Notes under the pieces: generated by a model
The model's database searches: none
What the model was told of the DNA's origin: nothing
The model's input: only the letters and a program-made list of their open reading frames with translations
Made by a program: the position numbers and the translations under genes
In this document: positions 6,845 through 64,000 of the stretch, in pieces
How positions within the stretch are numbered: the first letter of the stretch is position 1
Layout: every line of letters begins with the position of its first letter
NCBI RefSeq assembly: GCF_002775205.1
Contig: NC_036460.1
Coordinates: 21,470,751-21,534,750, forward strand
Source: Xiphophorus maculatus
Taxonomy: Eukaryota > Chordata > Actinopteri > Cyprinodontiformes > Poeciliidae
Length of the DNA stretch: 64,000 bases
Direction: 5' to 3'

Positions 6845-8125
<1,281 letters not shown>

Positions 8126-13639: not shown

Positions 13640-16440
13640 TTTCTGAACACATTTGAACTCTTCTATCATAAAAAAAATCAACTAAATTTACTGAAGTTTC
13701 ACCCGAGGGTGAAAATGTTTTTACATAGCACTCCACACTCCAAGATATTTTGCTCTCTCTCCTCCACCGGGTCTCGAAGTGCTAGTGCAAAAATGTAGAA
13801 ACACTGTTTATCCTTTACTCTCCTTTGTGACCTTTGACATTTTGCCATTATTAGCAGGGATATAGCTGTCATCAGTAAATCCAGCTTGTGTCCTCACAGT
13901 TTAATGGTCAAACAAGGAGCTTAGCATTCTTAGGAGTGTGGGTGTCAGTTCCTGGATAATTTAGCCATCCCGCCTGCTCGTTCGCCTTTGTTTGTGTGAT
14001 TTGTTTGGTCAGATGAAAACAGGCCAGTCTTGCCTTTGTCCTGTAACCAGAGAACATTTTGGATGACTGAATCTTTGGAGCCTAAAGTGTCGTATAAATA
14101 CAGTAACAAAGAGTGCGTTTGAAAATTTGGATACAACAATGGCATTCAAATTACGAGATACCCTGCTTGGTATCATTTGTTGGAAATTTTATCTTGTCTG
14201 CGTTACAAATGATCAAAAGTCACAACATGTCAATCATTGTATTATCATTTACAAGAAATTACCTGTGCTGTCACACAAAGTGGGTTTTCCCTTTTTCTTT
14301 TCAAGCAACAAACATTTTATCAGTTTCAATCAGCATTCCTGACTGCGCGTTTCTCACATGCTCTTTAATCTGATAAAGTGTGGATGAAACCAGATAAAAA
14401 GGATTAAGCGTGATCAAATTACCCTGTTTCTTTTTCAAACTCTCTCCTGGCTCCAAGATCAGGATTTGTGAGACCACCAGTGCAGATTTATAGCTCCATG
14501 AAAGTTGTGGGAGGTATGTGACATTTCTGCTCAGAACACTGAAGGTCTGTGGTTTAATTGCAAAAAAAGAAAAAAAAAATGCACACATAAAGCAGCCTTT
14601 TAGCTCAGCATGAGGAAATATAAGAAAAAATAGGTGGAGATAAATAACCAGCGATATCAGAAAAAACAGGATGAAATTAAACCAACATGTTTTAACATGG
14701 ATAGATATAGATATATAAACACTCATTAAATGTTAAACTATTTCAGATATAATTAATGTATTTCCCTTATATCCACAAACAGAGCAGCTGAAGTATTGTG
14801 GCAGTGTGCTGTGATGTGACACCCTCCCTGCAAAACAGCTACAGAGGTTTAATTATGAGGAGATTTAATTAGTGTTGATTTCATAAAAAAACACCAGTCA
14901 ACAAGTTAGAGACAGGCCCAACTCACTGCTGTAAAAAAGAAAAGAAAAAAAGAGATTGAAAGCTGCTTGTATCTCACAAAAAAATCTCTAAAATGAACAT
15001 GTTCCATCATCTATTTTTAATTAAGCATACCTTAGGCATTAATTATATATGACTCATTTTATTTATAGGTAGCATTGCAATAGACAGGGCAGTAATATGA
15101 TGAGATAAAACATCATTTGATTACATTACAGCATTCCTTGCATGATAAATCTCAACACTCTGTCATGCAATGTGGTGAAGGTGGTGGCTAATTACCTTAA
15201 TTGAAGTCCAAAACAAGCTTTTTCTCCTCTTTCATCTGAACAGCCACTGAAGCATGTGGTCTACTGTTTTCTCTGTTGTTGCCTCAAGATTATCTCTTTA
15301 GCAGCGTAAGTCGGAATAACACTCAAACTGACAGGCAAATGAACACATTAATCTAAATAGATTGCACATTGATGGGCTGCAAATGTAGTTTAGTCATGCT
15401 ACATAAATTTAAAAAATTCAGGCAAACCTTCCACCTAAAGTAGAGTACAAACATTGTTGATCCGCGCTGTTTGCCGGTGTGTAGTCATATAATTTCATCA
15501 GAACTACACAGGTGGCATTTAGTGGATGTCAGATGTAGCCTAAAGGTAAAGTAATAGCAGAGTAATTTACAACATGCTGCATAAAAAGGCATCCATAAAA
15601 ACAGCGTGAAGTACCTTTAGGAAAACCGCCACCATCCATGTGGCCCGCAGGGAAACTGTGGCAGGAAAAGTGGGTGTGGACTGTGGAGTGGGTTTCCATA
15701 AGTACACCTTTGGGTGTAGTCTCTTGGGAAAAAGTAGGGATAAGTTTGACACATAGGAGGTGTATCAGGTGTTTGCCGTAGAACAGATGAATGAAACACA
15801 TCAGGTAATGATGGTGGGGTGGGAACATGTGGAAGGTTTCCTACTCGCTACACGAGGCAGCAATCACAGATATAAAAACCAGCCACTAACCTTGTTCCTA
15901 TAACTTATTATGCTTTGCCTGAACTTTTAAATCACCGAGAGCACATGAGTTGTGTATATGACTATTTTGAAGTTGTTGTATTCTGTTGTAGACTGAGAAT
16001 GTGTTCAGAGAGGGAAAGATGTGGGACATCAAAGCATAGATCGTGTTTTTCTGTCAAAAGACAGAAAATCTGGTGCCTGCTATTACCTTGAGAAGGTTAC
16101 ATTACTGTCACAGTGTTTATACAGGTAAAAAAAATTCCACCAATGCAGCTCATCCAAAAGGCCTCCATCAGAGTCCTGAGCAATACCTCAAAAATGGATC
16201 CTATCACATCATCTCTTAAATCGACAAGAACTAAACAAGGTGAGGCAGTGTTTAGTTTCGGCACGCATCGGCTCTCGAACGTCTTCCTGAAGACATGAGA
16301 TGTGCAGAAATGGCTGGGTACTTTAAAGTAGGAATGATAACAAAATATTTACCAAAGTGACAGTCCATGTCGAACATTTTTGGTTATCTGGAGAAAGGTT
16401 TTTAATTAATCCCATTCACAGTAGATGTTTTGTTTATGCT
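13640..16440. other. No gene recognised
   Basis: AT-rich non-coding DNA. Open frames here (for example 14301-14726 minus) are low-complexity and show no known domain or splice context. Confidence 0.5.
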
Positions 16441-16454
16441 TTAACATTGCATTT

Positions 16455-16645
16455 GAATCCGGTTCTTGAGGCTGGGTGTACCGGCAACTTTTAGTCGTGT
16501 TTCTGCTTCAGCACACCTGAGTCAAATACTGAGGTCATTCGCTAGACTGTGGAGAACTTGACTGCATAATGTAAATGAGCCATTTGATTCTGGTGTGTGG
16601 TGCCAGGGACACATCTAAAGGTTTCAGGACACCGACCTTCCTCTT
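16455..16645. mobile_element. Degenerate MITE (hAT-type family common in fish)
   Basis: Carries the recognisable core CTGCTTCAGCACACCTGAGT, then GGAGAACTTGACTGCAT, then CCAGGGACACATCTAAAG, an order seen in a very abundant fish MITE. The ends (CCGGTTCTTGAGG and CAGGACACCGACC) are imperfect inverted repeats. Confidence 0.55.
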
Positions 16646-16699
16646 CCACCTTTAGTTGCAGAAAATAGCCAAAAGTAGGAGCAGAAAGTGATACAGAAC

Positions 16700-17080
16700 A
16701 TCAAACCAGGGTATTTGTCAATCCGTAGCTGGGCCATTGTAACTCTTTATCATAATGAGGTCTAAAAAATGACCTTGAAAGACTTCAAATGATCCGAAGA
16801 AAATTCTCATGATATCTAAAATTTAAACTTTGTTTTACATGTAAAGCCGTAAATAGTCTGGCTCAATCTTATCTCAACGACTTCATAGTTTTTTTTATTT
16901 CCAGCACAGCCCTTCACTCCTAGACTGCAGTTTTTATTTGTGGTTCCTGTAGCTTCTAAAATGGGAGGCAGGTCTCAAAGTTATCAGGCTGCTCTCTGGT
17001 GGAGCCAACTCCCAAGCTTTATCTGTGAGCCAGACACCCTGTCTGTTTTTAAGACTGAGGCTCAAACTATGTTTTAGCTA
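16700..17080 (+). mobile_element. L2-type LINE relic, 3' end of reverse-transcriptase ORF
   Basis: Broken plus-strand frames give fragments typical of the L2/Maui C-terminus: GHCNSL-like near 16733, CKAVNSLAQSYLNDF near 16842, then VVPVASKMGGRSQSYQAALW, QLPSFICEPDTLSVFKTEAQ. Stops and shifts make it dead. Confidence 0.6.
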
Positions 17081-18052
17081 AGTTTGGGTTGTCTTAGCTT
17101 AGGACCAATTTTCACTTTTCAGTTTGATTTTTCCAGTTTGTTCTCCATTAACAGTTGAGACTATTTTTGTTTTAATTGTAGCTTCAGGTCCCATACTTTT
17201 GTTCCATGTATTTTCCTGCCTGTTTAGTTTTAAACTGGATAAGGCAAATTGCTGCTATTGAGTTTTTTTTCCTATTAAAGGAGAGTTTAGTTTGGCTCCA
17301 CAGTCACCCTGTGTTTTCTCAGGATGAAAGTGCAAATCGGAGTAAAGATTGGATGCGATTGGCTGGTTTCTCATTTTTTGTAAAAGCTGCTGACTGCGCT
17401 GCATTAAAACTGGATCAAATTTGCATTCGACATAACTTTATAGTATTGTGGAAATTAACTGGATTAAACTTGAGATTATGTCTGTTATGAACTAGGATAG
17501 TATACAGAGTTGGATTGAGTTTAACTGAATTACATTTTAGAGCAGAGTGTTGTTCTCTACAGGACCAACCCAACACTGTACAGTTCTAGGTTTTGAGCAA
17601 AATTCTGTAGTTATGGTAAAACTGAGCCCTTCACCATAATTACATATTTGTGACAGTTATAAAAACTTAAGTCTGACTGTTTTAACTATCAATAAAAAAA
17701 ATGCAGTTGTGGCCTTAACTCAGACAGCAGCAGAAATGACTAAATTAGAATAAAAATTTAAGTAGATGAATATTTAGTGTGTACACAAATGCTGCTGTTG
17801 TAGCTCTTTACTGTGTAACATCTGGTGCAACAGGAGCTCCTAAATAGTTGGAACGTTTTCTTATATCTCCTATATACATTATATTGAACAGACATATATA
17901 GGGCTTGGCGACTTGCACTGTTTATAACACACTTCATGCACTGTATTTCACTAAAGAGTAAATGCAAAAGGACAATTAATTAAAAGATGAAAGTATGACA
18001 TTGTATAATTCTTGGGAAAAACATTAATAATACCAGTAACACCAAGTGAAAC

Positions 18053-18459
18053 TTTATTGCTAGATTTTCATTTAAAATGTGCCACTCTGGTCCATTTTAT
18101 TTATTTATTTAAACAGCTAAAACTTTGGTAAACTAGAAAACTTGTTCTATATATTGTGAAAGCACATGATAAATTAAAATAAATTACTTTCTGTTTGGAG
18201 AAAGCGATCCCCTTAGACTCTTTTGCCAAAAAAAAAATTTAAAAATGCAAATTTATAGAGGCTAGTGCTTTCACGGCATAAATATGCATGGGAGGTCAGC
18301 ACCTTCCTTCATCATCTGCTGTAAAAATCAAAGTCAAAGTTCAAGAGATGCATTGCCTAAATTTAGTTCAGCATGCTGCAGAGCTGTGTTGCTTTTATCT
18401 TAGTCCCCTGCTTCAGCTGTCATCTTCAGTATGCAGCACTGGATGTCTTCACCGGGGCC
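18053..18459 (-). other. pde9a: pde9a 3' UTR with clustered poly(A) signals
   Basis: Downstream of the predicted pde9a stop. The minus strand carries overlapping AATAAA hexamers (plus-strand TTTATT) at 18096-18109 and another at 18053-18058. This is the expected place for transcript end if the short terminal exon is right. The UTR limits are inferred from the hexamers only. Confidence 0.5.
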
Positions 18460-21400
18460 TCACTCACTTTTCAAGTCTTTCTTCAATCGGCTCATGAAAG
18501 ACGACTCCTGCAATAAAAAAAAAAAGAATTTAGGCAGACAGGAATTATTTTACCTCAAGGACAAAAGTTTATGTTAAGACTGGGTTTTAGATAAGTAGAC
18601 ACCCACTGCCCAGTTCAAATAGTGCATGATGGTTCAGTATTGAAAACCCTTGATTCAGGGCCTTGCAAAAGTTCCTGTTTTATTTTTTGCATTTCGTAAT
18701 ATTACAACCACAGAGTTCAGCTTTGTACCTCCAAAGTTATTTGGAGAAAATTCGACTTTGTGTTCAAAATGTTTTAAAAATCAAAACTTGAAAAGTGTGG
18801 TGTCCCCCCTGATTCAAGACTTTGTTGCCATGTTTGCCTGAGGTTATGGCTGCAGGTTTTGGGGGATATTTTTCTACCAGGTTTGCACAACAGGAGATAA
18901 AAAAAACAACACCTAATTCTTTCCAAAATGACTAGGTCTTAGTCAAATTTAATGAGGAGAATCTGTGAACAAACCCATGAGAAACAAGAAGCCTTCAGGG
19001 ATATTAAACATGTTGTACTTTGTGGTCCGTCACATAACATCCAAACAAAATACATAAATGGTTCTTTAAATCCTTCTGCAAGAAACAAAGTTTCAGAGCC
19101 AGGTTGTTAGTGAAGAGTAAATTTATAAAATACATCAAAGTTCAAATACGTCAAAGAAGTTATGATTTCAGCTCTTCAACAGAAAAAATCATGACTACAG
19201 GGGAAAAAAAAGAGAAGATTAAATACGTAACATTTTCACCAGTTTGTTTTCACCAATGACAAGATTAAATTTAAAGTTTTTATATCGTATCTGAGCTCAA
19301 ACATTTCTTATTTCTGTCTTTCATGTAAGAGCTCTGAAAAATTTTATGCTTGCTTTCAAAGTGAAAGATTTAGATTTGCCAGGAAACTCAATTATATGGG
19401 ATTATGGGAGCAAATTGATCTCTTAAAGCTGAAATGACAAATCAAACATGGGGAAAGTGCAGCACATTCCTGATTATAAATGTTTTCAGAGCGCTCACTG
19501 CACTCACTAAAACACACAAAACACAACTAAGAATTCATTTGATTTTATTTTACCCACTTGCTACGGACCATAATTTGTCTCAAAGCCTACTGACATATTT
19601 TCAATTTTTTCTTCTTCTCTGCCTCATTGAACAAAAGAGACCTTTATGTTTGCATGTGACGAGAGCCTGTGTTTGAGCCTGTGTTTGTGTGTGTGAATGT
19701 TTGAGTGACTTCATCTTGGTACAGAGGAAAACAGACTCTTTACATTATAGTTTCCCAATCAAATCCTCATGCACTGATCTAATCTGTCAGCACATGTAAG
19801 CTTTGATTTCTGCTGGTGTGTGTGAAGACTTAAGGTTTTTCACAGCGTTTTGTATGCCATCAGGGAAAAGTAGGAAAATACTTTTGGTGTTTTTTTTTTA
19901 AAATTATGTTGGCACTATGCAATCTTCCTTTTATACACCATAACAAGTGGGCATGCTTTATTGTCAGAACTAGGAATTATAATTCAAGTTGTAAAGTAAT
20001 TATGTGTGTTTAATGCTAATGAACTTTGTAATCATGTATAATTTAAAAATCTTAAAAATGCTCGTAAACTCTTATCTTAATCACGACCTTGACCTTGTGT
20101 TGTCAATGTTCTGTGTGTGTTTAGACTAGTTGAGCGATGGCAGATTTCACAAGAGTAAGAGAGACATTTTATTGTTTTATTGGATGTAAACAGTAACAGT
20201 TTTTGTTCATTTATTCTTGTGTTACTGTAGCATCGAGACTATAACTTGGATGCCCTCGAACAACATAAACACAATGATTCTGACTGCTACAAAACTTGAA
20301 ACATATAAAAGCGTAGTTTGGGATGTCATGTGTTTCGGCAAATAGATGTCTCTGAATGTTTCACACTGGGACTTTAAAGCAACCATTTAGGGAATAAAAA
20401 ATGTTCTTATTTGTTTTCTGGCAAAGAATGGGGGAAAAAGATTAGTTTCATTGCTTGGGTTTGTATTAAGTATTGCCTGGCTGGAGGACAGGGAGAGTTG
20501 GATGTTTATGAGTTTTTTTTTTATATCCCATGTAAAAATCATCCCTACTGTTTAATGCGTATCCACTAATCTTTGAATTTTGCTGGACTGGGTGAAATCT
20601 AGAACAAACGCATCTCAGGAAAAAGCAGTCAGTGTCCTGACCGTTTTAGAAAAATGTCAATAATTTGGGGTTCATTGTGACTGGCAACAGTATCACAGTG
20701 TCTCTCACATTGCTTTCTCTATGTAGCCAAACTGAACTAAATAAGGGGTGTAAAGCAAAAAAAAAAAAAAGACAAATCCTACCTCTGTCATTGAGTCTTC
20801 AAGCTGCTTCAGCTCCTCATAATGGTCTCGAGAGTCTCTCAAAGGCTGAACCATGATTTCTTCAATCTGAGGGAATAGCTGGTCAAAATACACATGTAGA
20901 GTAAACAACAAATTAAAAAAAAACAAAGAGTGCTGTATTAGCAATTCACATTTGTCCAATACCTTCATGGCTGTCTCAAACATGGGGATGAGGACAAACT
21001 TGATGAATCCAATCTGAGCTGTGGGTTTGGTAACTTTGTCTCTGTCCATGAAGGGAGCTACTGGAAGACCCTCAGACTTCTCCCTGTCACTCTTAAAACC
21101 AAAGAGGTCACTGCATTAGTATATTGTCATGTTAAGATTAGATCATTCTGGTCAAAGGAAATTCACCTGCATGAAGTATTCCTCCAGTAAACAGTCCACC
21201 CACGGCTCAGCAACCTCAGTTGGCCTCACTTCGTTGGAAATATCGCAGCACTTGATCAACACCTTCTGCAACTAAAATAACAAACACAAGCCTGTTCAAA
21301 CTCAAATTCAACATGTCCAAGAGCTGAGGACTAAAACAAGTGCAGCTGTGAAAATAATCTGTTTTGCTTGTATTTCTCGTTTAAATTTCTCATTCATCAG

Positions 21401-24400
21401 AAATGCCTTGTTTGTGACTGTGGCCCATTGCAATACATTTCGTCACAAAAGGCCCGATCCATAAGGGTAACAGTAGAGTAACATTAACAGATGGGGATTT
21501 TGTTGGTGAAAATGTTTACATACACACATTACGTGGTCCTCGTTGCTAAAATCAAAGTTGTCCAGTTTCTGCTTGAAGCCTTCAAGAATCTCACCATGCC
21601 TGGCCATGTCAGTGGCCAGAATAAGGGTGATAATAGCCTGAAAACATGAAAGGAAAGTCGAAATCTTTTTTATTATTATTTAGATTTGAAATCAACATAC
21701 ACTGGCATTCAAAAGTAGTCATAGCTCTTAAATGTTTTCAAATTTTGTCACTTTACAACCACAGGCTTGATTGAATTGGGACCAACCTGAAGTAGAGCAT
21801 AAGTCTGAAGTGAAAGAAAAGGCATACAAGGTTTACAGAATTGGTATGTACTCTATATTTAGCTTATTTTACCTTGGCACAACACAATACATGTTGTACC
21901 AAAGTGTGCTAATGTGCTCGTCATGGATTGTCCATGATGGACTCCATGTTCAAGCATAAGGGTGTCCAAATGTGCTCTAGGCACCAGGACATCCTTGGCT
22001 GCATTTCGTTGATAGACTTTGTTGTCGTCTCATCTGATCTGCGGCTTCATGTCTCGGACACTTGGGTGAAGAAAGGGGCAAAGCTGTCCACTGATCACTT
22101 CGGTGGTGAGTTGACTTCAATGATGGGAGAGGATGCCCAGAGGTTGGAGTAAACACAAGCATGCAGCATGTATCCTTATAGATTTATTTTGGCTAACTTT
22201 TTTGTTGCCAAATACTGGGTTTGTCAGAGAACCCATCATCATGCCACAAAAGTCTATAAGAGTTAAGATAAGTTTCTTTTTTCATGAGTCTAGACAGAAA
22301 TAAGTACGAACATCTTTGCTGATTCCTTGTGAAATCAGAATCAGAACGATACATAGATGTGACAGCAGTGCAAAAGATTCAAGACAAACTCAACATGACC
22401 AACATCTCACCTGTCGAATCTTTTTAAATGCCTCTGGATCAACATTTGCAAAGATGTTGCACTCAGGAAGCGAAAGGATCTGAAAGGCCACAGCACAATG
22501 ATGGTTCTCCAGCGGGGAGATGTCGTTGTAGCGCACTGCCAGCTCTGTGCGAGCGTTGATTTGGTATCTGATAAATGGATGACATAGTAGAATGGATCTG
22601 AGATGGTTGGATAGTAAGTTCTCATGAAGTTTTTCTGATAAGGTTCTCACCTGCATGAAACTCAGACAAACGTATCAACATGATTTGCTCAGTGGGAATG
22701 TTTTAATACCTGAATTCTCTCCAGGCTGAACTAGTTTCACAGCTCATCAACAACAATGTTGTGCAGAGTATATCAAAACATAACGAGGGTCAGTGGGCTT
22801 CTCCAGTGCTGCATATGTCAACAGTACTACAGACATAGGACTGAGTCTTACGTGTTGTTGTAGCCAGGGTGGTCCAAGTCATGACACACTGCTGTTGTCA
22901 TTAAAATTCCCAGATCTGTGAGGGTCAGCTTCCCCTGCAGGATAACGGATGATGAAACAAGCCTGTTGCCTGGAAATTCACTGGAAATACTGTTTTTAAT
23001 TAAATAATCTTACATCTGGCTTTAGTAAATAAGATTGAGATGTATTCAGTGCTTCATGCCTCTTTAATTTTTTATATGTTTTGCCACAATAAAACAACAA
23101 GCTTCAATTTTGCATGCATCATACTTTGTTAAAGTTCAAGATGTATGAATAATTTTGAAAGGCCCAGAACAAATATCTACCATACCTGCAGGTTGCAAAG
23201 GTGAATCATGCCGTACATCATCTGACTAACACAGAAGCAGTGACGAAAGTTGTGGAAAGGATTGTTGCGATAGTTTTCCTGTATTGCCAGCTAAAAAATA
23301 AAGAACACTCACTGTTTTGGTATTACGGGATATTAAATTAATCTGTGTTTCTAACAGAAATACGTAGCTTAACGTGCATCTGCTTTATTTACCAGCCAGC
23401 GTTTGAGTGTGATGGGGTTCATGTTAAATTCCTTCACCAATCCCAAGTCATGGTACATAAACTCCAGACAACTCAACATCTGTCACCACAAATAGAGAAA
23501 GAAAAAAAAACATCAGCCTTCCTTCTTGGAGGTGAGAGGGATAACATTAAACTGTAATGATGGAAATCACCAAACCTCATTATGTTCCCAGTGCCAAACA
23601 TCAAACGTTGGCTTCTTCAGTGCCTCAATGGTCTCCTGAGAAAGTGTGTACTGAATGTGGCAGATAAACGAACACGGTCAGAAAATCCACACACACCTTT
23701 TGTGAACTTCAAAGGCTGCATTGTGGAGAAAATACCTTTGGGTAAGTGGGGACATCTCTTCTAGGTGTGACCTTCTTCCCCTCTTCTGAGAAATTGAATT
23801 TGCATGAACAGCTTACCCTAAGGTCAGAAGTAGACAAAGTAAATCAATCTTCATTGTTGTTGTTGTTTTAATGTACTCGGTGTGATGCCATGTTTGAAGT
23901 CTCACCTACTTCCGCCTCTTGAAGTCATCTCATCTCGAAGTTTCTTCAGATCGTTTTTACATTTTTCGATTTCGACTACTTTCAAACCCTCCACTGAAAC
24001 AGGACGAATGATAAATTTGAGTTCCCTATTAGAGTTTTGTAGATGCTTCTCTTTTTTGTTGATCACTCACTTTCCACTCTCTTTTCCAACGCTGCCAACC
24101 TGTTGGTGACCTCAGACTTCAGCTCACTGATGCAGAAGGCTCTGTCTCAGACAGTTAAGAACAAATGAGAAATCAGCTCTGTTTACAAGTGATTCAGTTT
24201 ACCTCTGAGGGCTGTCGCGGTTTCAAGAACTTTTTGCAAAATGGCGATGGGAAAGCTTCAGACACAGCAAAAGATGAAGGTGTTACCTGGTGAACTGCTC
24301 TGCCACCTGAGACAGCACGCTCTGAAACATGTCCTCCCTGTCTGTGGCATGGATAAAAATCTGATGAGCCACTGAAGACCAGTACAATAATTTCCCATAC

Positions 24401-33246: not shown

Positions 33247-41631
<8,385 letters not shown>

Positions 41632-50043: not shown

Positions 50044-50708
50044 TAATAATAAAAACATTTCCTTGGACTTTTGTCACCGACAGAAATGCTGGTTTGTAAA
50101 GCTTAAGCTCAACTCGTTGAGTATTTTGTAATGTAATAATTAAAAGTTACTTTTTTTTCCCACCTACTCTCTTACATCAAATAGAGACTAGTAAATAGGT
50201 GCGAGATGACGGTACTTGACATTTTCCAAGCAAACGGAACCTGAATACCTTCTGCCTCTTGCATCTAGAGGCAGATTAATCTGAGCTCTCGAGGAGAAAA
50301 AATGAACTGAGACATTCAGTCATCTGTCGCTATCCCGTGGGGTAATTAAATGAGTCACTCAGTTATGTCTTGCATTAATCACACTTGGGTTAAACCATGA
50401 GGGACTTTTAAAAGACAGACTGAATTATGTATAGGATTAAATGGCTGTTGTCATAATGTTTAAGATTATATTAGTGTTCCTTCAATATGTGTTTGTCTCA
50501 GAGAAGACATCCTGAGAATATCAGATCATGTTGCTTTTGTGAATATATTTGGCTTTATCTAAATATTCTGTCACTGTGATTAAATAAGTAACTTCCCCAT
50601 CACTTACCTTAAGTTGTCTAGTGTAGTTATGACGTGATGAGAGCCTCTCTTACCATATTTACAATCGCTAACCATAATGCCCTCTTGGCTGCATTATGGG
50701 ACTTAGTC

Positions 50709-52187
50709 TTACCCCTTGGCTCTACAACACTGACCTGAGCCCCCCTGGCTGCTGTTGAGCACATCCCCAGTGCTGCTCACCTCCTCCCCTTCGGTTTTGT
50801 CCTCTGGCTTCATCTTCTTACGAGTCATGTGGCCGCGGAAGCCAGCCTGGATCTTGGCAGCAGCTCTGTTGGCCTCGGGGTCGTCCAGGGGGATGTCCAA
50901 GATGTCCTCCTCCTCCTGGGGTCGGCTGCACTCCTCCTGCTACGAGAACAAGCGAGTTTACAGCAGTGCGGGGAACGGACTTGAGGATCATGCGATGGTG
51001 TTTTCTCTTAATTCCTTTCCATGAAACACTTGTGGGAGTTTTTCCACCGATAACAGATTGTGAGACCATATTTTGCTAGGTTAACTGTAAATGCTTAACA
51101 GTTGTATTTTTTTCTTTTTCTTTTTTGCCTGAAGCATGTTCGTTTTAGCAGCTGTGATCCGTGTTCTCAGTCTGTCAACATTCAACTCTTTCCAAGTTTT
51201 GATTTTGTTTTTGTCAATGAAACACTGCCGGTTCAAATATACTAATTTAAAAAAAAAAAATTTCTGGGTTTTGTTTTATGAGTTTTTATCTTCAAAGAAG
51301 GTGAGGAAAGAGTTCAATCTTTCATCATGAGAAACTAACAGTGCCCAAAATTTGAAGACTGCAGATTGAAGGTACTTTACATCATTCCAAACTGGCCAAA
51401 TTCACACCCAAAGTCACCTGTCAAAGAAATAAAAATACACCTTCTCTTCAGCATTCCCCCCCCACAAAAAACAAGACGATCCAGCAAAAAAAATTGTTGC
51501 AGTCCACGACAGACACTCAGAATCCACTGTCCCAGAGGACAAGCGGAGTGGGCGGGAAGAGAAATTCCTGCTGGTGACAAATTGTCAGTGAAAAAGTGCC
51601 ACGGATATTGATGAGTTATGTAAACACCTATTCAATTTTTGTGGAGACAACAGATTGTGCGTACGTCGTGCTTTGCGTGTGGTAACGAACTGACATTTCC
51701 CACTAAAGAAATGCAGCCCACAGAACGGTCCCACTGCCATCCCGCTATCTCAGTGAAGCAGCGCATCATGTCTCCAGTGAAACCCCTTCTAGTGTGGGAG
51801 TGTGACCACCCACCTGTTCGGCCAGCATTCATTAGCCTCTCTGTCTGACTGCTCACAGAGCAGCCAGCATCCAGCTCTTTCACAGGAGAACAGAGACATA
51901 CACTGGCAAACACATCTACTGTGTAAAGTTGGAATGTTTTTTTTCTTTACAACATATTCACTTCTTTTAAAGAATTTAGCTTTGAAAAAAAAAAAATAAT
52001 ACCAGGAAAAAAAAAATAACTCACCGCCGTAAAGGACAAAAAACAACAATTCTAGCTTCTGCATGCAGTTTGACATTCCCAGTAACAAAACCTTGGGGAT
52101 TGTCTTAAAGTAACAACAGATTCATCCAAACAGCTAAAAGGCGTTTAAAGTTCATTTGAAGCATTTACTCACATTGTGACAGTCCAT
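50709..52187 (-). CDS. nrgn: Neurogranin (calmodulin-binding IQ protein)
   Basis: Small postsynaptic protein that binds calmodulin at low calcium. Exon 1 codes only MDCHN (52173-52187, donor GTGAGT); exon 2 is 50709-50939. That five-codon first exon is the same organisation as mammalian NRGN. The 81-aa product has the acidic block [12 protein letters not shown] and the IQ motif [17 protein letters not shown], then a divergent Ser/Gly-rich tail ending QCCRAKG. The tail is shorter and less glycine-rich than the human one. The acceptor is a tandem TAG-CAG, so a form lacking Gln6 is possible. The residue equal to mammalian Ser36 (PKC site) is Gly38 here. The stop lies in exon 2 and is followed by good donors (GTAAGA at 50712, GTAAGAG near 50653), so the 3' UTR is probably spliced. 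It is likely the nrgna-type paralog. Confidence 0.93.
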
Positions 52188-52364
52188 TTCTTTTGCTCTG
52201 GGACGACTTCAGTCTTCAAGTGAGCTGATCTAGTTTAACTGGAGTGCCTAAATAAATTCTGACTTGGGCCAAGGAGGACGCTCTTTAAACGGGTTTCTGA
52301 TACAATACAGATGCCTGATTGGCTCTCACTAACAGTCGCTGTATGTTCAGTAACAGTCGCTCAC

Positions 52365-52437
52365 GCACAGAGGGAGAGGGAGAGAGAAAGAGAGAAGCAG
52401 GGACACACAGGGAGAGAGGGAGAAGAGAAAGAGAGAC
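52365..52437. repeat. GA-rich tract upstream of nrgn
   Basis: Purine-rich AGAGGGAGAGGGAGAG-type sequence 180-250 bp upstream of the nrgn start codon, possibly part of its promoter region. Confidence 0.8.
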
Positions 52438-54289
52438 CTCCTACAAACATAACAGCATGTGTTTCATCCTTTCGGTCTCATTAGGGTTGCTGACCTACTC
52501 TGCTCACTTTACCCTTGCAAATGTCTAACAGATCCACAAAGTACAACATCAAAATGGAAATTACACATCACATGAGCAAGCAAAAGATTTAGTTTAACCC
52601 TCTATGGCATGGCGTTGCCCTCAGGCAACAAACCACATAGCTGTACCTCACATTGCTCCTTTATTTTATTTTTTGGGGGGCATGATTTTTGACATATTTT
52701 TGTCCAAAAAATAGTTCTTTTATGAATATAGTTTTTGTTTGATTTGTATTTCATTTCTCATAATCAGTGTAGACAATCTTGGTGTTCTAGACCAATGTTA
52801 CCCTGAGGCAACAAACCCAAATCTGGTTCCAGGAGGTGTCAGAGTCCGATTTTATGATTGACATGTAATTAGGGACCACCAAGCTCCCAAAGAATGCAGG
52901 AAAATATTTCTTCCCCACAAAAATAAAAAGTCATGCCATAGAGGGCATCTTTGTGTAAACAGAAAGCCGGTTCTGCACGGAACCTGTATTATTAAAATTT
53001 GACAACTTTCTCCATCACGGTAAGAAACTTCACAATTAAGAAAAAAAAACAAACAAACAAAAAAAAAACCCCAGAGAGTCCAGCCTGGACGTACTATTTA
53101 AAGTCCAGATGGCAAAAAAATTCTACTAATAGTGTGAAAACAAAAACTGTGCAAGCATCTTGGAACGTTTTTTTTTGCGCTGGGAGGTGTTATAAATTTA
53201 TTAGAGGCAGAGAGAGCTAACAGTCCTCTCCATCCCTCTGATCCCAGCTGGTACGGCCGCCCACACTCCTCTGCAAGCCTAACAGACAAGACGGGGGGAG
53301 AGAGGGAGGACCAGAAAACATCCATTTATCCACGTTGTATGTTAAACAGCAACGCAGTGATGCCAATTAGCTGAGCAGTTCATCATGGTAATTGCGGCAC
53401 ATGCCTTACAGCTCGAAGCTGAGTTGCTCTGATAATTAATAGATCAATATTTAGACATTTTAAACACATTTAAATAGGTGGTAACGAATCCCTATGTAGC
53501 TAAGCTGCTTCATTTGTATTGTGAACATCAGTATTTAAAATTGAGTTAGTGAAAAGTGAAAATATAAGTCATAACCAAAAATACGTAGGTGTCACCATAG
53601 CTGTCTTAATGTTGCAAAAGTGGCCTCATTTTAACTTATGTTAGGGGATCTACTTTTTTACTCAGTGAGTTAGAAACTGTTCTAAAAGGTACAGCACTGA
53701 TACAGAGGGTGCCTAGCAACTATCAGCATCACCATCTCCTATTAAATCCATGACGATACGTGGATGGTGAGGGAGTTACCATAGTAACATTCTCGGTATC
53801 CCTTCCTACACTCCCTCCCTGTATGTTTGGAGAAGCCTGGTTGGTCCAGACCAACCAGATGGGGGTTTTACCTGTGACAGCACTGAAAATGTTTGAGAAA
53901 TTGTTTAGTCGTCCTTTTAGAGAGATTACAGAGACCAGTTTCACTCTGGGGGCGCTGCGTTGGCTTCCAGGAGGAGACTTGATCTAATCCAGACTTTTTT
54001 CTTTTTTTTTTTACAAGAAAACAGGCATTGATACAGAGGGATGAAGACCACCTAGTCATTTCTATCATCATGCCAGAAAAGATGGCATTTAAAGTATCAG
54101 AGGGAAAATGACACATCATTATAAAGAATGAAATATTTTGGAGACATTTTCAAACATTTCCCTCCAGACAGAGTTGTGTTCCTATAAAAGGCCCCAGTTT
54201 CTGTCAGAGGTTTACAAACACCAAACATTAATATTTATGTCACAATAATGTTGAGCTTTTAATGATTTATTTAAATGATTCTCTATTTG

Positions 54290-54510
54290 AGAGTGGATAC
54301 ACAGTATATACAGGATTAAACATATGTGGATACACATACAGGATTAAATAAATACACAGTATATACAGGATTAAACATATGTGGATACACATACAGGATT
54401 AAATAAATACACAGTATATCCAGGATTAAACATATGTGGATACACATACAGGATTAAATGGATACACAGTATATACAGGATTAAATATATTTGGATACAG
54501 GATTAAATAT
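54290..54510. repeat. 55-bp minisatellite between nrgn and spa17
   Basis: About four copies. The marker CATATGTGGATACACATAC recurs at 54321, 54376 and 54431, giving a 55-bp period. Each unit contains two CAGGATTAAA submotifs, so the unit itself is an older duplication. The last copy is degraded. Confidence 0.93.
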
Positions 54511-54752
54511 ATAATATTGGAGAAAAGGTAAAACAACAACAACAACTACAACAACAAACAGCACTTATGTAGTCATTAGCAACCTTCCGGCATATTCTGC
54601 AAGGTTAGTTGATCCATCTTCTGACCCAAAATGGCGGAGTTCATTTAAAATATTTCTTTTCCTGGCTCCAAGCCCATGAACTTTGAATGAGGTCGAGGTG
54701 TGGGGCATTCCAGAATCTTCAGGCCTGTAGATATGTTGAAAATATGGAAACA

Positions 54753-55278
54753 TTTATTATTTTTATTGCTTTTATTTTTAATTAATTAGTTATCAAAGTG
54801 GTAAGAACAAGGAGCTCTTTCTGGCCTGGAAATTTTCCTGCTTCACAAAGACTGTGTACAACTCATTTACAGTGTCGAAGTCCAAGGCTGCAGAATTGAT
54901 TTTGGTCATTTTTAAATTTCTGACCAATCATGTGTGAAATCACACTCAAAAAAAGTTCTGCCCAGAATATGTGTCAAAAACAAGCCGAAAGAACTCCTGA
55001 AGGGGCGTTGCAAAAACAGAATGGCGTCATTAGTTGCACAATTAGGCGGTTTCAATGCAATAAGGGAGGCTTGCTCAAATATTATGGAGGGTAATATAAT
55101 GATCAGTTTCAGTTCTACTCAAGTTATGGCAGTAAAAGAAAATTGCTTGCAGAAATTGTGCAAATATTAATTTTACTGCATAGGAAAAGTGTGAAATGCA
55201 TCATAACAGAGACTGGACAGTTTCTCAAACAACCAGGATTACCTTGTCGCTGTTGTTTGCGCCTGCTGTGCTCTCCTC
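54753..55278 (-). other. spa17: spa17 3' UTR
   Basis: Non-coding stretch after the spa17 stop, ending at minus-strand AATAAA signals (plus-strand TTTATT at 54753-54758 and again within 54761-54780). It contains no IQ-motif exon in any minus-strand frame. Boundaries are inferred. Confidence 0.4.
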
Positions 55279-58200
55279 CTAAATCCCAGCAGGTCCTTCC
55301 TCTTCCTCAGCGTCAGCAGGTGTCCCATCAGAATTATCAGAACGAGTCTCCTCATATTCATTATCCACTTCAGGAGTAAAAATTTCATCTTCTTCTTTAA
55401 ATGTCACCTGCTTGAAGGACTTCTCAGAGACTGTTGGACTTACACTGCTTTTCTCAGGAGAAACTTGAGTCTCCGTTATTTCCCCCTCACCTTGAGTCTC
55501 TGTTATTTCCTTCTCTTTTAGAGTTTCAGTTACTTCCCTCTCACCTTGAGTCTCAGTTTTATCCCTCTCACCTGGAGTCTCAGTTATTTTCCCCTCACCT
55601 TGAGTCTCTGTTATTTCCCCTTCACCTTTAGTCTCTGTTATTTCCTTCTCTTTCAGAGTTTCAGTTTTATCCCTCTCACCTGGAGTCTCAGTTATTTTCC
55701 CCTCACCTTGAGTCTCAGTTATTTTCCCCTCACCTTGAGTCTCAGTTATTTCCTTCTCTTTAAGAGTTTCAGTTACTTCCCTCTCACCTTGAGTCTCAGT
55801 TATTTCCCTCTCACCTGGAGTCTCAGTTTTATCCCTCTCACCTGGAGTCTCAGTTATTTTCCCCTCACCTTGAGTCTCCGTTATTTCCCCTTCACCTTTA
55901 GTCTCTGTTATTTCCTTCTCTTTCAGAGTTTCAGTTACTTCCCTCTCACCTTGAGTCTCCGTTATTTCCCTCTCACCTAGAGTCTCAGTTATTTTCCCCT
56001 CACCTTGAGTCTCCGTTATTTCCCCTTCACCTTTAGTCTCTGTTATTTCCTTCTCTTTCAGAGTTTCAGTTACTTCACTCTCACCTTGAGTCTCAGTTAT
56101 TTCCCTCTCACTTTCAGTGTCTGTTATTTCCTTCTCACTTTGAGCTTCATCCTTTGCTTCTTGTTGGGTGTCAGGATGAATTTCATACTGATTTGCAGGT
56201 AATTCGACAGCATTTTCCTCAAGCTGGGTTGTTATAGTTTCTGTCTCTTCAGCAGAATATGTGTCGTCTTGACAAATTGATGTTTTTGTTTCACCAGGCT
56301 TTGAAGCAGAGGCGTCCACAAGAAAAGTCAAATGTAGAACGCTCTGAAGTGATTCTGATTCTACAGTATGCTCTTCTTCTGAGCCAACAGTTTCCTGCTC
56401 TCCAAATGCACCAACTGGTTGATCTTCATCCTTATATTCCTGATCCTCCCACCTTTGGGAAGGACTTTCCCCCTCGCTTACATCTGAAGTTTCATCGGCT
56501 TGGTCCACCTGAATCAAGCTCAGGTGTAGTAGGTCATCATCTACTTCACTATCTAGTCCGATAATTTGACTAGGTTCAGCTTCGGTAAGCTCATAATCTT
56601 TGTCTATCCCGCTCTGTTCATCTGCTTCAGATGTCTGTTCTGTATCTTGTAGTTCAGTTTCTTCATCCTGTGAGCCTTCAGCCGAATCAGTTATATCTGA
56701 AATTGGAAGATGTTCGGTGGAAAGAGCTGCATCTTCAACTGAGTGACTTGGCTCTTCTTCAGTTTCGAATTCGCTTGGTTTTCTCCTAAGAAACAACGAA
56801 ATGGAACATTTTTAGAAACATTACAGATTAAAGCAATGCTTAGAATTTATTAAATGCATCTTTCGAACTCAACTGCAACCTGTGTATGTTCTCTGCTGCT
56901 TTTAGTCTCAAGTAGTTCTGTTCCGCCATTTCCTCTCAGCCATGACAAAGAAAATCTTCTTTTTTTTTCTTCTTCTTGTTTGTCTCACTTAAATGTTTTA
57001 GGTCATCAAACAAATTTTGATATTGGGTATAACCTGAGTAAATACTAAATAAAATTTTCTGCTTGAAAAAAATCTATCCAATCGAACCCTACACTACGTG
57101 AAAAGGTGGCCACAGGCATGACTCTCTTGTTAAATCATGAATTAGTTGTGATTAACCATATTTTTTGGTTTAATTTCACAAGCCACATTTACTAAGTGCT
57201 AAATTACTAATCAAGAAATCACCTAAGTAGAACATGTCAGCAAAATGTGGCCCAAAAAAACAACACATCAGGCCTGTTCTAAAAACACATCAAGAAAACA
57301 AAGCAGTCAACTGAATAAGACCACTGTTTCCCAAACTTGGTTTATTATGGGGGCACTGCACAAGCTTGTTATTTCTCCATTAACTGCTTAAGTCTGTTGA
57401 AGCAGGCAGACCTCTAACAATACTTCCCATGCAGAGTTCACATGCTTTGAGTTCCAAGGATTTTGGACAAAATTTAAAAAAAAAAAATAGGTGATGTGTT
57501 TCTGTACATATTTCACATCATTAATTCTAATTGGATTATCAAATCAGCTGAATTTGCTAGAAATGCATTGGAATTGCTCTTAAATCTTTGCTCTGAAATC
57601 TCAATTACAATACTAGTGTAATTGTATTACACTAGTATGAGTTGGATTGATTTTCTTATATTTCAGTATAAAGGGATACTGAAACAACAGAACCTATTTG
57701 TCTTCAAAAGTACATTGAGAAAACAGTGGTTGTAAAATGGCCTTATATTAACTCACTTAGTAGAGTTGAAAGGTCAACATAAAAATGTAATAAATGACAA
57801 ATTGAGTAAGGTTTTTTTATTGATGAAAATGTAAACTCCAATGTAATTTCATCAGAGCACATTTCTATCTTTTCTCTCATGTTCTTCATCTCCCTCTCCT
57901 CTTGATCGTGCTTGCTGCACTTAAAGTGACACTCACTTGGAAACGTGGGCCTCCTCTGTTGCTGTTTCCTTTTCAAGACCAACAGTCTGGAAAAAATAAA
58001 AAATAATAATACAATAAACTAACACAGACTCAGTTTAGTTAGACATGTTAAGAGCTGTAACTTCAAAGAGTGTCTACCTCTGTACTCTTGAAAGCATGGT
58101 TATTGTAGAACCTGTCTTCCAGCTTGGCAGCCCACTCAGAAGGGTCCATCCCACTTTCTGTGAAGAAAGAAGGAAACACAGTTTGTCCTTATTTAATGAA

Positions 58201-58405
58201 ACATGAAGTTTCAATATAGTATTGTTATCTCATTTTCTTATGATCGGTTACCTTCTCTTTCTTTCAGAAGTTTGTCAAAATACTGCGCTGCATATGCAGG
58301 GATGTTGTCGGGCTGGTCCCGGAGAATCTCCCGGGTCAGTCCCTCTAAGAGGGCCCCAAATCCCCGAGGTACCCTCAGGTGAGTGTTGGAAAAAGGCACT
58401 GACAT
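55279..58405 (-). CDS. spa17: Sperm autoantigenic protein 17 (Sp17) with giant repetitive acidic C-terminus
   Basis: Exons: 58252-58405, 58078-58157, 57937-57986, 55279-56785; total 1791 nt, 596 aa against 151 aa in human. Exon 1 starts MSVPFSNTHLRVPRGFG, nearly the human start, and encodes the RIIa dimerisation/docking fold (LLEGLTREILRDQPDNIPAY) by which Sp17 binds A-kinase anchoring proteins in sperm flagella and cilia. Exon 2 gives FDP-like DPSEWAAKLEDRFYNNHAF, also conserved. After that the human and fish proteins part: exon 4 encodes a long Glu/Asp/Ser/Thr-rich segment, then about 25 copies of a nine-residue repeat (EITETQGEG type) at 55464-56130, then an acidic end (PADAEEEEGPAGI). The C-terminal IQ motif of mammalian SPA17 is not found here or in the 600 nt downstream. 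An upstream in-frame Met at 58432 exists but the homology favours 58405. Confidence 0.9.
55464..56130 (-). repeat. Coding 27-bp tandem repeat in spa17 (about 24.7 copies)
   Basis: Period 27 nt encodes a nonapeptide of pattern [E/K/D]-[I/V/K]-T-E-T-[Q/L/K/P]-[G/K]-E-[G/R/K/S]. 667 nt divided by 27 gives 24.7 units. Unit types recur in an ordered run (EVTETLKEK, EITETKGEG, EITETQGEG, KITETPGER, DKTET...), which shows a higher-order repeat of about five to six units that was itself duplicated. The frame is kept throughout with no stop, so the array is under coding constraint or young. Confidence 0.97.
57610..57638. repeat. 13-bp hairpin in spa17 intron
   Basis: ATACTAGTGTAAT (57610-57622) pairs exactly with ATTACACTAGTAT (57626-57638) with a 3-nt loop. 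Confidence 0.9.
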
Positions 58406-58706
58406 TTTCCTGAACCACGTGTCTGATTCCAAGCTATAATAACAGCAAAAAAGGTTTCCGGCTTTTCACAAGTGAAATGTCACCACTAATTTAGCATCTG
58501 TAGTTAACGGACTTTCTAAATGTTGTTTGGGTTCGTAATTAAATCGCGCTGTCGAATCGGTTAACTGTTTAAATGTAAACCATCTTTCTTAAAAATCCGT
58601 TCTAATACAACGGTTTGTTGTGACCTGGTAGCATTTTAAATCGACCTTTACCGAATCGTTTATAGTTATCTAGCGCCACTACTAGTGCCGTGTCTTGTTG
58701 ATATCT

Positions 58707-60385: not shown

Positions 60386-64000
<3,615 letters not shown>

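Follow-up and report, generated by a model that had tools for sequence, protein, structure and literature searches.

A spa17 ortholog in Xiphophorus maculatus with a repeat-bearing acidic tail and no IQ motif found

We asked what is encoded by a locus of Xiphophorus maculatus at which an Sp17-like docking head runs into a long Thr/Glu-rich repeat: whether the gene is spa17, whether it has kept the calmodulin-binding IQ motif, and what its tail may do. The locus lies in a window of 64,000 nt (RefSeq assembly GCF_002775205.1, contig NC_036460.1, positions 21,470,751 to 21,534,750), which is the whole stretch of DNA analysed here and to which all positions below refer.

Gene model and docking head

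Four coding exons on the minus strand, from 58405 to 55279, join at AG/GT borders with compatible phases into a single frame of 596 codons, with exon 2 ending in phase 0:

58252–58405, minus strand: spa17 exon 1, coding part, with the RIIa docking/dimerisation domain (ATG at 58405; PDB and Pfam matches)
58078–58157, minus strand: spa17 exon 2, with the FYNNHAF extension of the docking domain (splice borders, frame, alignment to Sp17 chains)
57937–57986, minus strand: spa17 exon 3, a short acidic linker (splice borders, frame)
55279–56785, minus strand: spa17 exon 4, 1507 nt, a 501-residue acidic tail up to a TAG stop (frame, splice borders)

Splice borders and the open frame are the basis for including exon 4 in this predicted transcript. 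An initial annotation of this DNA had proposed that one exon of about 1.5 kb codes for about 500 extra residues, and exon 4 bears this out in both length and residue number. The joined protein has a net charge of about −114 at pH 7.2 and a pI of 4.15.

RIIa (Pfam PF02197, E 1.5e-13, residues 15–51) is the sole Pfam domain in the whole protein at E up to 0.1. In the PDB, the three top-ranking chains are all Sp17, namely 9fqr (bovine sperm), 8j07 (human airway) and 7my4 (zebrafish); their E values are 2.2e-37, 8.7e-37 and 4.9e-35, and PKA RII comes next at 1e-06. The head is identical at 54/75 residues to human Sp17, 55/75 to bovine Sp17 and 55/72 to zebrafish Spa17, so the close likeness of RIIa and FYNNHAF region to Sp17 noted at the outset holds. 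The extended docking domain DPxEW...DRFYNNH is present; it aligns to zebrafish 7my4 as far as residue 72, and past that point to the mammalian chains. Human (8J07) and bovine (9FQR) Sp17 have the RIIa head and FYNNHAF extension in common with the X. maculatus protein, but their chains run to only 151 and 147 residues, compared with 596. The RIIa docking domain is also that of Chlamydomonas RSP7 and RSP11, which the PDB search matched at E 1.9e-05 and 0.0049.

To place the gene in its genome, exon 1 was searched against the X. maculatus assembly (704 Mb, 101 contigs). Only one of the four matches, the exon itself, was at full identity (100%); the other three were 35–38% identical and were read, by inspection, as first exons of PKA RII. 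Exon 4 DNA matched itself only, in a search that skips simple repeats. A single spa17 copy, apparently without an IQ, is seen in this genome, in a loose first-pass search that a divergent second copy could escape. Downstream of spa17 on the minus strand lies a neurogranin exon with an IQ motif (about 50735–50936, borders by inspection). Neurogranin presumably adjoins human SPA17 on the same strand as well, as part of the mammalian neighbour order. Because of its head, its neurogranin neighbour and its single copy, the gene is, by its sequence, a fish ortholog of SPA17 that lacks the IQ module, and not a standard Sp17. The name spa17 given by the initial annotation is thus upheld by Sp17 chains as top PDB matches, by RIIa with its FYNNHAF extension and by the adjoining neurogranin.

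CABYR likewise is an RIIa protein with a long low-complexity tail, and the X. maculatus gene could in principle encode it or another RIIa protein of that build. However, the weakest of the three Sp17 chains scored about 90 bits above every other RIIa chain in the 20 PDB matches listed, and the FYNNH extension is shared with the Sp17 chains. The gene next door is neurogranin, and the exon 1 search found no better-matching spa17 elsewhere in the genome. Head, extension and neighbour all fit Sp17, although no CABYR chain is among those 20 matches. CABYR is counted among proteins added in higher animals in PMC8339350. Overall, we find an identity other than spa17 very hard to credit.

Published structures indicate where such a head may dock. 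According to excerpts of PMC8339350, residues 1–75 of zebrafish SPA17 form an RIIa-type four-helix bundle, and AKAP18 was bound at 82 nM by SPA17–ROPN1L compared with 9.6 uM by SPA17 alone, the binding constructs being human and the crystal zebrafish. 9FQR is a bovine sperm doublet model in which RIIa and DPY30 domains are reported to dock on CFAP91 and RSPH3 (parts of PMC11779644), and 8J07 is described as a human airway model (parts of PMC10266980). Six Sp17 chains are modelled in 9fqr and four in 8j07; the terms SPA17 and SP17 are absent from the main text of PMC11779644 and PMC10266980. From these chains we infer that Sp17 sits at the radial spoke, and radial-spoke helices are the likely docking sites of the X. 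maculatus head. As for expression in other fishes, a higher sp17 level in testis is reported for Diodon hystrix (PMC8068034), and in sea bass spa17 counts among the genes of spermiation (PMC13342237); zebrafish spa17 is reported in forerunner cells and the pronephric duct, also in vessels and other tissues (PMC3306315).

Absence of an IQ motif

The Pfam IQ model had no match in the three minus-strand frames of 52000–58420. As a positive control, the scan was taken down to 50600, where it recovered one IQ, that of neurogranin (E 0.00015). With this control in place, the proposed absence of an IQ motif is confirmed for these frames. A pattern search in all six frames of the window returned four IQ-like strings, among which only neurogranin's at 50852 was convincing; a stricter pattern found nothing and missed neurogranin too. 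When the bovine Sp17 IQ stretch was compared with 50600–58420 by tblastn, the one match below E 0.05 was again neurogranin (1e-07), and the next matches, at E 0.096 and 0.50, fell in acidic parts of exon 4.

A relic of an IQ downstream of the gene was not supported: the best Smith–Waterman score in 51000–55290 was 26, compared with 28.6 on average and 42 at most in 60 shuffles. We also searched the bovine IQ against the X. maculatus genome for a second, IQ-bearing spa17, and set this possibility aside. The four matches were weak (E 0.048 to 0.32): neurogranin, one exon resembling gap43, one in which an Ig-like stretch follows the IQ (by inspection), and one match without a listed frame of at least 300. 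Neurogranin itself was recovered only at E 0.048, which marks the sensitivity of this loose first-pass search; a divergent IQ exon could be missed by it. Derivation of the Sp17 IQ from neurogranin was not supported either: compared with its score against neurogranin, the bovine Sp17 IQ did better against two proteins that carry several IQs each, Chlamydomonas RSP23 and CFAP91.

Whereas mammalian Sp17 has an IQ stretch that aligns with neurogranin's, no IQ was found in the X. maculatus protein. The initial annotation had drawn its comparison with mammals; the motif is indeed missing here, but zebrafish is needed in the comparison too. Both zebrafish spa17 and human SPA17 are reported to have RIIa and IQ, and in zebrafish a glutamine-rich region, which human and mouse are without, lies between the two (excerpts of PMC3306315). 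Zebrafish spa17 (zgc:153721; 7MY4 covers residues 1–75) therefore resembles the X. maculatus gene in having a low-complexity region after RIIa. As PMC3306315 describes the zebrafish tail, however, this region is glutamine-rich and is followed by an IQ, whereas X. maculatus has Thr/Glu-rich repeats and no IQ was found. Because of this zebrafish gene, the absence in X. maculatus is probably derived, by loss, and not a trait of fishes in general, a polarity that turns on the zebrafish IQ as stated in one paper (PMC3306315, in part), and a long low-complexity insert in fish Spa17 is not new in kind. Related calcium-binding motifs are ascribed to RSP7 and SPA17 in excerpts of PMC8339350; in contrast, no calcium or calmodulin module was seen in the X. 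maculatus protein.

We also weighed whether the major transcript differs from the predicted one, with exon 4 shortened or skipped, or with an unrecognised downstream exon that restores calmodulin binding. One feature past the stop bears on this:

55237–55246, minus strand: weak donor-like site CAAG/GTAATC, 36 nt past the stop and in phase 0 with the frame (from sequence)

Reading beyond the TAG runs for 12 codons up to this site, which is weak at its +5 and +6 bases when graded against the splice-donor consensus. An acceptor-like site before 54724, together with an AATAAA at 54271, could form a 3' UTR exon. The donor-like site may be due to chance, or it may mark an intron in the 3' UTR or a coding exon once present downstream. 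Another transcript would draw further on the zebrafish gene with its reported IQ (PMC3306315, in part), and on phase: exon 2 ends in phase 0 and the IQ exon of neurogranin appears to start in phase 0 (by inspection), so that a fusion of the two would be in frame. To our knowledge, however, a spa17–neurogranin fusion transcript has never been described. Joining the exon end at 55243 to 54724 would read Ala and then a stop, even if the TAG were passed (by inspection). A downstream IQ exon, which the initial annotation had named as evidence against its own reading, was looked for, and the sole minus-strand IQ in 50600–58420 was neurogranin's. A major transcript of another form thus appears decidedly unlikely to us. 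Separately, a 55-bp tandem repeat (3.7 copies, 95% match) lies at 54297–54499, on or next to what may be the 3' end of spa17.

The acidic tail and its nonapeptide array

As first described, the tail is long and acidic: the 501 residues of exon 4 have a net charge of about −110. Its repeat array and the sequence that follows it are placed as follows:

55468–56142, minus strand: array of 25 units of 27 bp coding for 25 nonapeptides (residues 310–534; coordinates from residue numbers and the stop at 55281–55279)
55282–55467, minus strand: non-repeat C-terminal 62 residues (535–596) of exon 4 (computed from residue numbers)

Net negative charge is common to the non-repeat parts on either side of the array. 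By the charge–hydropathy rule, each of the three tail segments is placed on the disordered side of the line; the rule is coarse, as the folded head also scored as borderline disordered (0.027 vs 0.024). In a single-sequence AlphaFold model, the mean pLDDT of the tail was 42.1, with 0/501 residues at 70 or above, and the 501-residue tail is predicted to be disordered. The same model drew roughly one short strand per nonapeptide, and over the array pLDDT climbed from values in the thirties to values in the fifties. This strand-per-unit feature, at pLDDT below 60, is probably an artefact of near-exact repeats.

The 642-nt non-repeat stretch of exon 4 before the array has no stops in the coding frame, compared with 4 to 24 in each other frame, and none of 2000 mononucleotide shuffles of it was open. 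The non-repeat part after the array was open in 24/2000 shuffles. No Pfam domain matched the tail at E up to 0.1. Searched against the PDB at E up to 10, exon 4 had two matches, both of which were taken as composition: a Thr/Glu-repeat LIM-domain protein (E 4.9e-05, with a bias of 46.9 bits in its best stretch) and a WD-repeat protein (E 0.61). Descent of exon 4 from the mammalian linker before the IQ was also considered and rejected: phmmer extended the bovine alignment slightly, but 722/2000 shuffles scored as well, again a matter of composition. A sub-threshold PCC_BT match in another frame was set aside.

The nine-residue Thr/Glu repeat is real, but in the protein register it counts 25 units, of 11 peptide kinds, rather than the 24.7 copies first given. 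Exon 4 does not end in it, contrary to the initial annotation, as 62 non-repeat residues come after. At the DNA level, TRF reported 25.2 copies of 27 bp at 55464–56144 and a 135-bp super-period with 5.0 copies. By inspection, three leading units are followed by blocks of 5, 6, 4, 5 and 2, each opening with LKEKEITET; the higher-order pattern of five to six units therefore stands in part, beside blocks of 4 and 2 and the leading units. Units five and ten apart are the most alike (identity 0.857 and 0.847), and the longest exactly repeated tract, of 97 nt, is found at the five-unit lag. With such an identical tract, fast length change of the array is plausible. The literature listings searched contained no description of a tandem repeat in spa17, which is weak evidence of absence.

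As assemblers can miscount tandem arrays of 675 bp and the number of units comes from one assembly, the repeat number might be an artefact. However, the units keep both register and reading frame, and the copies are not identical but vary at several sites, with 11 peptide kinds in the 25 units, unlike a plainly duplicated piece of contig, and we regard a miscounted array as very improbable.

The last Thr of 24 of the 25 units reads T-x-x-E/D, with an acidic residue at +3, which is the CK2 pattern. The array holds 27 CK2-type sites, compared with a shuffle mean of 16.7 and a maximum, in 2000 shuffles, of 27; these sites are one motif copied and not independent evidence. Judged from its residues, the tail could carry many phosphates.

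What the tail may do

We hold with fair confidence that the locus is best explained, taken jointly, as a spa17 ortholog that has lost its IQ and gained a disordered spacer tail. The head would pair with another RIIa protein such as ROPN1L, and the pair would dock on amphipathic radial-spoke helices (RSPH3 or CFAP91) or on another AKAP. The calmodulin-binding end would have been lost in this lineage, with no calmodulin recruitment through an IQ. The tail would be a disordered polyanionic chain tethered at the docking site, working as an entropic spacer by excluded volume and charge. It may also be a multi-site CK2 substrate, because the last Thr of nearly every unit (24/25) has the T-x-x-E/D form, and the array would gain and lose units by unequal exchange, in many cases about 135 bp at a time. 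The initial annotation had suggested an acidic spacer at flagellar AKAP sites; the acidic, predicted disordered tail agrees with this, but the likely sites are radial-spoke helices, and the spacer role is one that we infer.

Orthology and IQ loss are common to a rival explanation, in which the translated tail is near neutral ballast and the minisatellite expanded without function, either after IQ loss or because acidic disordered tails tolerate change. Across all unit pairs pN/pS was 0.73, which is not significant against a neutral simulation (mean 0.89, range 0.54–1.29, 60 runs) and fits such ballast. The 97-nt exact tract, as a trace of recent slippage or exchange, and the lack of a Pfam domain in the tail at E up to 0.1 also fit it. 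However, 6/10 changes within equivalent repeat positions were synonymous, compared with an expected 0.217 (P 0.0096), and without units 3 and 7 this was true of 5/5 changes (P 0.0005). In this test 21/25 units were placed by hand, with units 1, 2, 13 and 25 left out, and if one third of changes were silent by chance the P for 6/10 would be 0.073. The changes at equivalent positions, being mostly synonymous, provide a mild hint of constraint on the repeat and argue mildly against free decay. Also against ballast, the frame is kept across 642 nt of non-repeat sequence and 25 units, and negative charge is common to the non-repeat parts on both sides. Overall, we consider a tail without function possible but rather doubtful.

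In a bolder proposal, which we regard as speculative and unlikely, a radial-spoke adaptor has in X. maculatus exchanged its calcium-sensing end for a polyanionic brush that varies in length and can be phosphorylated at many sites. If it were true, several copies per 96-nm repeat would line the spokes, repeat number would tune spacing or charge near the spokes and through it the beat pattern, and alleles would differ between males. Under the preferred reading of a disordered spacer, and provided that the tail is produced and maintained, an axonemal docking head that is itself conserved would be uncoupled from calmodulin and would carry a tail able to change its length fast. Such a protein would offer a direct way to ask if the radial spoke depends on Ca2+ sensing by Sp17 and if sperm motility responds to the length of a coding repeat. 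It would also be a warning against carrying over to every fish an Sp17 biology that is based on the mammalian IQ.

For the neighbour upstream of spa17, Pfam gave no match at its curated cut-off in an upstream flank of 9,950 bases (both strands) and in 58.4–64 kb (plus strand). Elsewhere in the window, exons with Ig V-set and Ig_3 matches lie at 37887–39040 on the minus strand, in a gene that we take to resemble hepacam, and a Pro-rich frame without a PDB match lies at 33247–33621. Three minus-strand frames at 14000–23000 match PDEase_I, presumably in a pde9a-type gene. Tetranucleotide microsatellites are found towards both ends of the window, with 39.8 copies of CTAT at 7615–7773, and 67.8 copies of TATC and 59.2 of ATAG at 63410–63917.
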